64,000 nucleotides of DNA. It comes from Psychrobacillus psychrodurans (GTDB taxonomy: Bacteria > Bacillota > Bacilli > Bacillales_A > Planococcaceae). The stretch is from positions 1-64,000 of the forward strand of contig FOUN01000011.1 of NCBI GenBank assembly GCA_900114885.1. Reading direction: 5' to 3'. The translations under genes and the position numbers were made by a program. The notes under the pieces are model-generated. The model was not told where the DNA came from, did not search any database, and worked only from the letters and a program-made list of their open reading frames with translations. Of the stretch, positions 62,126-64,000 are shown in pieces; position 1 is the first letter of the stretch; each line of letters opens with the position of its first letter.

Positions 62126-62512
62126 ATGTTCCATTTACTAAGACTGCTTATTTTGATACTTATCATATATGTTTTTTATAAAATTCTTCGCTACTTATTT
62201 GATCCTAAGCGTAAACTGGATGAGGCATATGAAAAAGAACAGTATTATTATTATGATGAGGTAAAAAATGTTCGTAAAAACTTCTTTATCACGTATAAAG
62301 GGATCCTATTTGAGGGAGAAAAATATTTAGGTACTACCGACCAAGCCTTCGAAGTCGTTTCTATCTTTATTTGGACAAAAGATCCAGCTAAATTACAGGG
62401 CTTTACAAAAGAAGACTTACGTTTCTTACAAAATGAAATTAAAATGAATTACCCAAATGCCAAAATAAACTGGAAAAGCCCTATTGAGCAATTAATGCGG
62501 GATGACCAGTGA
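62126..62512 (+). CDS. ysdB: Sigma-W pathway protein YsdB
   Basis: 128-residue protein with an N-terminal membrane helix (MFHLLRLLILILIIYVFYKI) and a charged cytoplasmic part containing KNFFITYKGILFEGEKYLG. Locus and length match B. subtilis YsdB, which belongs to the cell-envelope-stress sigma-W regulon; the promoter here agrees. Function unknown. AGGAGG lies 9 bases before the ATG; the frame to 62060 starts upstream of the promoter. Confidence 0.9.
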   Translation: MFHLLRLLILILIIYVFYKILRYLFDPKRKLDEAYEKEQYYYYDEVKNVRKNFFITYKGILFEGEKYLGTTDQAFEVVSIFIWTKDPAKLQGFTKEDLRFLQNEIKMNYPNAKINWKSPIEQLMRDDQ

Positions 62513-62523
62513 AAATAAAAAAC

Positions 62524-62555
62524 GGTTAGCCGAGAGTTTTCGGCTAACCTTTTTG
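62524..62555 (+). terminator. Terminator of ysdB
   Basis: GGTTAGCCGA, GAGTTT, TCGGCTAACC, then TTTTT. Confidence 0.92.
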
Positions 62556-62818
62556 TGATTGATCGATAAAAAATATCAAATATTTAACTATAGGAAACAC
62601 CCTACATGAATGTTGAACTTTCCGCATGCTTCGCTTGTAACCTTCAAGGATGGATCGCGATCGCTATCTTTCGTCCCTTCACCCCTTTTGAAGTCTCATT
62701 CTTTGCGCTCTTACGGCTCGTAATGCGCACATCCTAGGGACCACTGTGATGTAGAATTTTCTTTTTACAGATCATCCATCGGATAATTGAAGTATTGATG
62801 GATATATTTTTCGTTCCG

Positions 62819-62909
62819 CAAGTAAATAAGCTTCTTAAGCAAGTAAACTAACAATCTGCACAAGTAATCTCTGAAGGATGACAAGTAAGTAAAATTCAAG
62901 AGCAAGTAA
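62819..62909 (+). repeat. Five CAAGTAA heptamers on an exact 21-bp pitch
   Basis: CAAGTAA begins at 62819, 62840, 62861, 62882 and 62903, each 21 bases apart; consensus RCAAGTAA. The 14 bases between differ. Pitch equals two helical turns. Confidence 0.9.
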
Positions 62910-63126: not shown

Positions 63127-63162
63127 AGCTAAGATAAAAATTTTTTTTGGGGGGATAAATTG

Positions 63163-63396
63163 ATGAAAAAAACTAGAATTGTATTTGCAATAATTGCTTT
63201 TTCTTTATCTTGTTATAGTCTGATAAGTAGAGATTTTGATTTAATGCCGATTGTAATGATGTGCTTAGGGGCATTTATGTTAGCGTCAGGATTATACGAA
63301 CTTCAAAAAGACCGGAAAAGATTTGAAGGATATTTATTCATTATTGTCTCTTTATTTCTTTTCACTATTACCATAACGGGTTTGTTATTGAACTAA
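63163..63396 (+). CDS. DUF3953 family membrane protein (YczI-like)
   Basis: 77-residue protein with three hydrophobic segments (about residues 5-20, 28-46, 56-76) and the central LYELQKDRKRFEGYLFI motif typical of YczI/DUF3953 proteins. GGGGGG lies 8 bases before the ATG at 63163. Function unknown. Confidence 0.8.
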   Translation: MKKTRIVFAIIAFSLSCYSLISRDFDLMPIVMMCLGAFMLASGLYELQKDRKRFEGYLFIIVSLFLFTITITGLLLN

Positions 63397-63789: not shown

Positions 63790-64000
63790 GGATAAAGGCA
63801 AGGCTGGTGCAATAACCAGAGTAGGATTATCTCCCATGAGTGCTTCCCCTAAGGGAGCGACAGTCTGTGATGCACCGTGGTCGCTGGAGTCAGACTAACA
63901 GATGGGCTCTTTGGCACCATAGTTCATCGACCTTCCTCTCCCAGCCGTAGAATCCTATACCCACGTTTTTACATTTTCATTCTCTGTGGTGTAGCGCTGA
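63790..64000 (+). ncRNA. Structured non-coding RNA, probable mobile-element end
   Basis: No gene; several complementary pairs: CTGGT/ACCAG (63804-63808, 63815-63819), TAGGATT/AATCCTA (63822-63828, 63951-63957), GCGAC/GTCGC, AGTCTG/CAGACT, and GGCTGG/CCAGCC crossing the long stem. The layout (folded RNA of about 170 bases, compositionally distinct from its AT-rich flank) resembles the non-coding end of IS110-family elements (bridge RNA) with a recombinase gene expected beyond 64000; an IscB/TnpB-associated RNA is the alternative. Confidence 0.45.

Follow-up and report, generated by a model that had tools for sequence, protein, structure and literature searches.

Short intergenic words repeated every 21 bp form dispersed arrays in Psychrobacillus and related bacteria

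In plasmid iterons (e.g., R6K, RK2, and F), one protein binds several direct repeats that are asymmetric and spaced by about two helical turns. ParR/parC centromeres of the pSK41 type consist of tandem 20-bp repeats that seed a protein superhelix, and the ends of Tn7 carry three to four direct TnsB sites of ∼22 bp. The REP/BIME, ERIC, BOX, and Bacillus cereus bcr elements occur in many intergenic copies, often between convergent genes, and are mostly palindromic or RNA folding; BOX has a modular structure in which an inner block is repeated. The DNA uptake sequence dialects of the Neisseriaceae are short, over-represented intergenic words, single or paired, that vary with lineage. To our knowledge, there is no uptake-word system in Bacillales.

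The arrays described here share with iterons the direct repeats about two turns apart, but they are dispersed over the chromosome (37 loci in the relative G004), their spacers are unrelated, and no gene family recurs beside them, whereas iterons lie at a replication origin beside a rep gene. They share a tandem, ∼20-bp-scale site geometry with ParR/parC, from which they differ in having many dispersed copies and no recurring segregation gene family. Like TnsB sites, they place several direct sites at a spacing of about two turns; however, they are one-ended, and no transposon body, second end, or inverted termini were found. The many intergenic copies, which avoid genes and promoters, recall REP/BIME, ERIC, BOX, and bcr, but the main core is not a palindrome, no fold is predicted, and a strict 21-bp beat is kept. 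Uptake dialects resemble the arrays only in their lineage-specific words, as the arrays are phased. We class the arrays with phased binding-site arrays and dispersed repeats, while stating a chance that they form a new class. A limited search of open-access papers found no description of such arrays.

The starting point was an array near the end of the window, the 64,000-nucleotide stretch of Psychrobacillus psychrodurans DNA analyzed here (contig FOUN01000011.1, positions 1 to 64,000). A preliminary description had reported five copies of CAAGTAA spaced by exactly 21 bases, and their starts were confirmed at 62819, 62840, 62861, 62882, and 62903. The features of the locus are as follows.

62524 to 62554, plus strand: predicted intrinsic terminator of the ysdB-like gene, read from the sequence (stem GGTTAGCCGA/TCGGCTAACC, then TTTTT); the array lies beyond it.
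62557 to 62569, plus strand: GATTGATCGATAA, possibly a lone unit of the GATCGATT array that has seven units in the same gap of the relative G005.
62799 to 62909, plus strand: whole element, leader plus five units spaced by 21 bp, with limits set by conservation.
62799 to 62818, plus strand: leader TGGATATATTTTTCGTTCCG, immediately 5' of unit 1, fitting TGGaaAAAtTttCC.TT.CG, the consensus of 77 related arrays.
62819 to 62825, plus strand: core 1, CAAGTAA, preceded by G.
62840 to 62846, plus strand: core 2, CAAGTAA, preceded by G.
62861 to 62867, plus strand: core 3, CAAGTAA.
62882 to 62888, plus strand: core 4, CAAGTAA.
62903 to 62909, plus strand: core 5, CAAGTAA, preceded by G; a sixth core is present in most related arrays.

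The four 14-base spacers (ATAAGCTTCTTAAG, ACTAACAATCTGCA, TCTCTGAAGGATGA, and GTAAAATTCAAGAG) are unrelated to each other, which bears out the claim that an invariant heptamer with differing spacers is not a simple tandem duplication. Tandem Repeats Finder did not report the array because its spacers differ too much. All four exact 21-bp pairs of CAAGTAA in the window come from this array. With up to two mismatches allowed, there were six pair matches, compared with 1.08 expected, and none of 100 window shuffles reached six. The array had also been placed correctly between ysdB and a YczI-like gene: the ysdB-like ORF ends at 62512, and an ORF of the DUF3953 (YczI) type occupies 63160 to 63396. 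The ATCCATC and GATGGAT arms noted just upstream do exist (62774 to 62780 and 62797 to 62803), but as an inverted repeat they are not conserved. GATGGAT extends into the beginning of the leader that other copies conserve. Because the region upstream of the leader, where ATCCATC sits, is not conserved (at most about 0.4 bits among the 77 arrays), the inverted repeat is probably a coincidence.

Two other stretches of the window resemble dispersed repeats. At 62700 to 62740, CTTTGCGCTCTTACGGCTCGTAATGCGCACATCC is similar, when reverse complemented, to a dispersed repeat of the GGATGTGCGCTGCCGCACGCTACGC type; several other arrays have this repeat downstream (e.g., L181, L251, L252, and L256). The GC-rich noncoding stretch at 63805 to 64000 (also in L262, L274, and L276) is like dispersed GGCGACTCCAG(C/T)GG repeats that are found repeatedly in ysdB-type gaps among several relatives; no transposase appears in the ORF list just beyond it.

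A genome-wide scan for CAAGTAA at 21-bp spacing, which the preliminary description had proposed as a check, gave a huge excess over its control. CAAGTAA-N14-CAAGTAA occurs 234 times (135 + 99) in the window genome (G000), compared with once (0 + 1) for the reversed pattern. The relative G004 has 96 such pairs (complete list), which fall into the 37 loci by our own grouping. Many CAAGTAA arrays are present in 4 of the 19 genomes of the genus (G000, G004, G007, and G008), and matches to CAAGTAA in which the spacers vary were also found in Fictibacillus, Metabacillus, Ureibacillus, and Bacillus sp. 522_BSPC. Matches of the four-copy pattern outside Bacillales were set aside, since most are simple 7-bp repeats or 21-bp repeats that are nearly identical. 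A viral origin was likewise rejected: judged by the repeat stretch, the 26 matches in viral contigs look coding-type or simple, and none has a leader with a variable-spacer element. Separately, one chromosome segment, apparently the same in three genomes, is unusually dense in arrays (G004, 1.3 to 1.6 Mb; G000, C8 240 to 395 kb; G008, 2.9 to 3.2 Mb).

The anatomy of the element was summarized from 77 representatives of arrays in about 80 regions, chained with at most two mismatches per core. Typically, a 20-bp leader (TGGATAAATTTCCCGTTCCG-like) precedes six 21-bp units; six units are present in 47 of the 77 arrays and five in 21. Flanks beyond the element are little conserved. The conserved word spans 7 to 8 bp, and a weak GAGMG before it and an A after it extend the site to ∼14 bp. 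Steps between units are overwhelmingly 21 bp (n = 328), with a few of 20 bp (n = 21) or 22 bp (n = 2) and double steps of 41 to 42 bp where a unit is degenerate or lost. Helical phasing was thus the right idea, as spacing departs from 21 bp by only ±1, and the phase is maintained in close relatives. Spacers are common to dispersed copies within one genome and drift between copies. At some loci, several whole blocks stand in tandem (up to eight copies of the six-unit block), with amplification periods of 186, 226, and 103 bp.

Several familiar explanations were rejected on these features. A coding heptad repeat is contradicted by the 20- and 22-bp steps within arrays, by TAA stops in one frame of each unit, and by the lack of any array in a long ORF (ORF-based). 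The arrays are not CRISPR arrays: the conserved word is only 7 to 8 bp, compared with identical repeats of about 23 to 50 bp in CRISPR, the spacers are shared and drift between copies rather than being unique, and the neighbors are diverse housekeeping genes instead of cas genes. Curvature from phased A-tracts was weighed on paper alone, with AA and AAA lying about half a turn apart.

The arrays occupy particular kinds of gaps. By ORF-based assignment, gaps with arrays comprised 32 convergent, 48 co-directional, and 7 divergent cases, compared with 45, 122, and 55, respectively, for gaps without arrays. Arrays are therefore depleted in divergent (promoter) gaps and enriched in convergent ones (chi-square P = 4e-4), and where inspected, they lie beyond terminators. 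The 78 flanking proteins contain no Pfam family more than twice, and no transposase or segregation gene family recurred among them; the best 25 of the 100 Pfam families found in these proteins include no replication initiator. The five direct repeats two turns apart had led the preliminary description to suggest cooperative operators or iterons. As a local set serving a neighboring gene or replicon, this reading fares poorly, since dozens of copies per chromosome lie beside unrelated housekeeping genes, promoter-type gaps are avoided, and no replication gene family recurs nearby; we consider it very unlikely.

Two protein families were seen near arrays. Arrays of TACGAGAG and CCACCACATAA at 21 bp lie repeatedly near a secreted-looking family (MKKKKMFNKAFSAFL...) in L236 to L239 and L246 to L249, with 12 of the 21 cluster members having an array no more than 1 kb away. 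The second family comprises ORFs that begin with MNKKEIALLTETESLERLLYRLPKNHSQRR and possibly encodes a NERD-type protein; in three genera, its members lie no more than ∼110 bp from arrays (L257 5367 to 6320, L247 5144, and L308 1701; three of the four members seen).

Arrays mostly run in the direction of the local genes (55 versus 27 loci), so that an apparent replichore polarity of the arrays is accounted for by gene direction. In co-directional gaps, the array strand is the gene strand in 33 of 48 cases. This bias would suit an RNA-level element, such as a binding site in a 3' UTR or a sponge whose 7-base seeds are repeated. However, the arrays inspected lie beyond terminators, and neither strand is predicted to fold: among 76 arrays, the mean z score relative to shuffles was +0.9 for the array strand, which is thus less structured than shuffles, and +0.1 for the other strand. 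Rfam gave no match above the gathering score, and spacing held to ±1 bp is unexpected for single-stranded RNA. RNA structure was accordingly rejected, and we assign only a slight probability to any RNA-level role.

The 21-bp beat extends to other words. We scanned ∼1 Mb from nine other Psychrobacillus genomes, not selected for arrays, for exact 6-mers occurring three times with dissimilar spacers at periods of 14 to 35 bp. There were 17 matches at 21 bp, at least one of which also looks coding, and none at 14, 16 to 20, 22, or 23 bp. The reading-frame-like periods (15, 24, 27, and 30 bp) gave one to five matches and 25 bp gave one. Outside reading-frame-like periods, variable-spacer arrays in this sample thus occur almost only at 21 bp.

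The word varies with lineage, and a single genome can hold several word families (GCAACCAA, ATTCCAACTAA, TTGATCGATT, and GCGCAACACTT). Noncoding 21-bp words include GAGAGCAACCAA and ATTACAACTAA in G013; TTTACGACAATC, ACCGACCGATTA, and GCGCAACACTT in G012; and ATTCCAACTAA and TTGATCGATT in G005. The clade of the window has the further families TACGAGAG and CCACATAA, and G004 and G008 carry TACGAGAG and CCACCACATAA arrays alongside CAAGTAA. Three copies of GCAANNA at 21 bp were matched in 75 of 151 genomes of the family; many of these have one or two matches, which may be chance, while genomes with tens to hundreds of matches use the lineage words GCAAGTAA, GCAACTAA, and GCAAACAA. Further lineage words are GCAAGCAA, CCAACTAA, and CCAAATAA. 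In 399 Bacilli genomes, three copies of CAANYAA, a pattern blind to unrelated words, were concentrated in the family of the window and a single genus outside it (g58, apparently Metabacillus).

Different words can occupy the same gap. In the ysdB gap, the window has CAAGTAA (five units), G005 has GATCGATT (seven units), and G009 and G013 have GCAACCA-type arrays; in the G013 copy (L277), up to three array families stand in a row (CGAGCATAAAA, ATGTTGCG, and GGTTGCT types). Close to an M42 peptidase gene, G000 and G004 have CAAGTAA arrays in a gap where G005 has TATTCCAACTA units. Although such single gaps are shared, an early impression that array positions are conserved between genera was dropped because cross-genus sharing (4/13 versus 5/21) was not above chance.

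Orthologous arrays allow core and spacer change to be compared. In 18 orthologous pairs from G000, G004, and G008 (three of 21 first-pass pairs were excluded as apparently mispaired), substitutions affected 7.7% of core positions and 25% of spacer positions (P = 5e-23). Because arrays were detected by their cores, the best adjacent unit pair of each array was then dropped, which gave 11.3% and 26.0%, respectively (P = 2e-9). With detection bias allowed for, the core thus changes at about half the spacer rate, a difference to which gene conversion could contribute. In G005, which has no CAAGTAA arrays, the one orthologous copy that was examined is decayed, with just one recognizable unit left.

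These data bear on whether ordinary repeat turnover, i.e., spread with gene conversion or slippage and no binding protein, could have produced the arrays, with the 21-bp beat inherited from a few founders. Whole-block tandem amplification and the spacers shared by dispersed copies within one genome fit this account. It does not anticipate that unrelated words all recur at 21 bp while neighboring periods are empty, that words are homogenized and spacers are not, or that arrays are biased in gap type and orientation. We regard it as improbable.

Gain and loss are clearest in the yojF gap. There, a ∼205-bp insert comprising leader and units lies directly behind the terminator at the same point in G004, G008, and G007, and G005 has a shortened remnant. 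The gap is short or empty in the window genome, G014, and most other relatives (at least 10 readable; G013 and G002 were left out, and G017 has unrelated sequence there). On this single locus, the simplest history would be a gain in the clade followed by loss in G000.

Such presence and absence raises the main rival, namely, that the array comprises subterminal transposase or recombinase sites of a nonautonomous mobile element, copies of which inserted behind terminators, with different words reflecting different enzymes. A longer diverged repeat encloses the array at many loci, although alignment of this repeat around some arrays did not yield clear ends, and phased ∼22-bp direct sites are known from Tn7-type ends. 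However, the yojF insert shows no terminal inverted repeats or target-site duplication, and it provides the one clean empty site found, which the window genome may owe to loss of its copy. No transposase family recurs among the 78 flanking proteins. In addition, the core is better preserved than the spacers in resident orthologous copies, which would not be the case for dead insertions. Mobility, which is not exclusive with a protein-bound array, is in our judgment unlikely but well worth weighing.

The tolerance of only ±1 bp, the direct orientation, the constrained words, and the placement after terminators instead point to a protein-bound array on double-stranded DNA. We give about an even chance to the reading that these are dispersed, helically phased, head-to-tail arrays for a putative sequence-specific protein with lineage-specific specificity. 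The element would be noncoding, with a leader followed by about six direct ∼14-bp sites (GAGMGCAAGTAAAT) centered every two helical turns. The putative protein would bind these sites head to tail and cooperatively on one face of the duplex, touching its neighbors; such contacts between neighboring copies may explain why core word and 21-bp phase are kept while the remainder of the spacer drifts. Its specificity would differ by lineage, with several word families coexisting in one genome. Because arrays lie mostly in gaps behind terminators, a structural job (anchoring, insulating, or road-blocking between genes) seems likelier than promoter control; we hold any particular role with much less confidence than the array reading itself. 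The tandem clusters of up to eight six-unit blocks and the presence or absence of ∼205 bp also fit a mobile or expanding repeat. That one protein family stands behind all words is an assumption, since the cores TACGAGAG and TTGATCGATT have little in common with CAANYAA.

More tentatively, and with some doubt, we propose a previously undescribed multifamily phased-array system in Planococcaceae and some Bacillaceae. Each of its many array families would have a word of its own (8 to 14 bp), all at 21 bp, and would be bound by one co-evolving member of a putative family of head-to-tail DNA-binding proteins that organize or insulate the chromosome behind terminators; the words would switch genome-wide in concert between lineages.

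If a cognate protein exists, the arrays would represent a previously unknown chromosome-binding system in which each genome offers dozens of natural multisite arrays and the recognition word evolves, so that the co-evolution of a protein with its genome-wide sites could be traced across close relatives. If the arrays are instead mobile, they would be dispersed elements of a new kind, all sharing one conserved phase. In both cases, they probably give rise to spurious repetitive ORFs in annotations.
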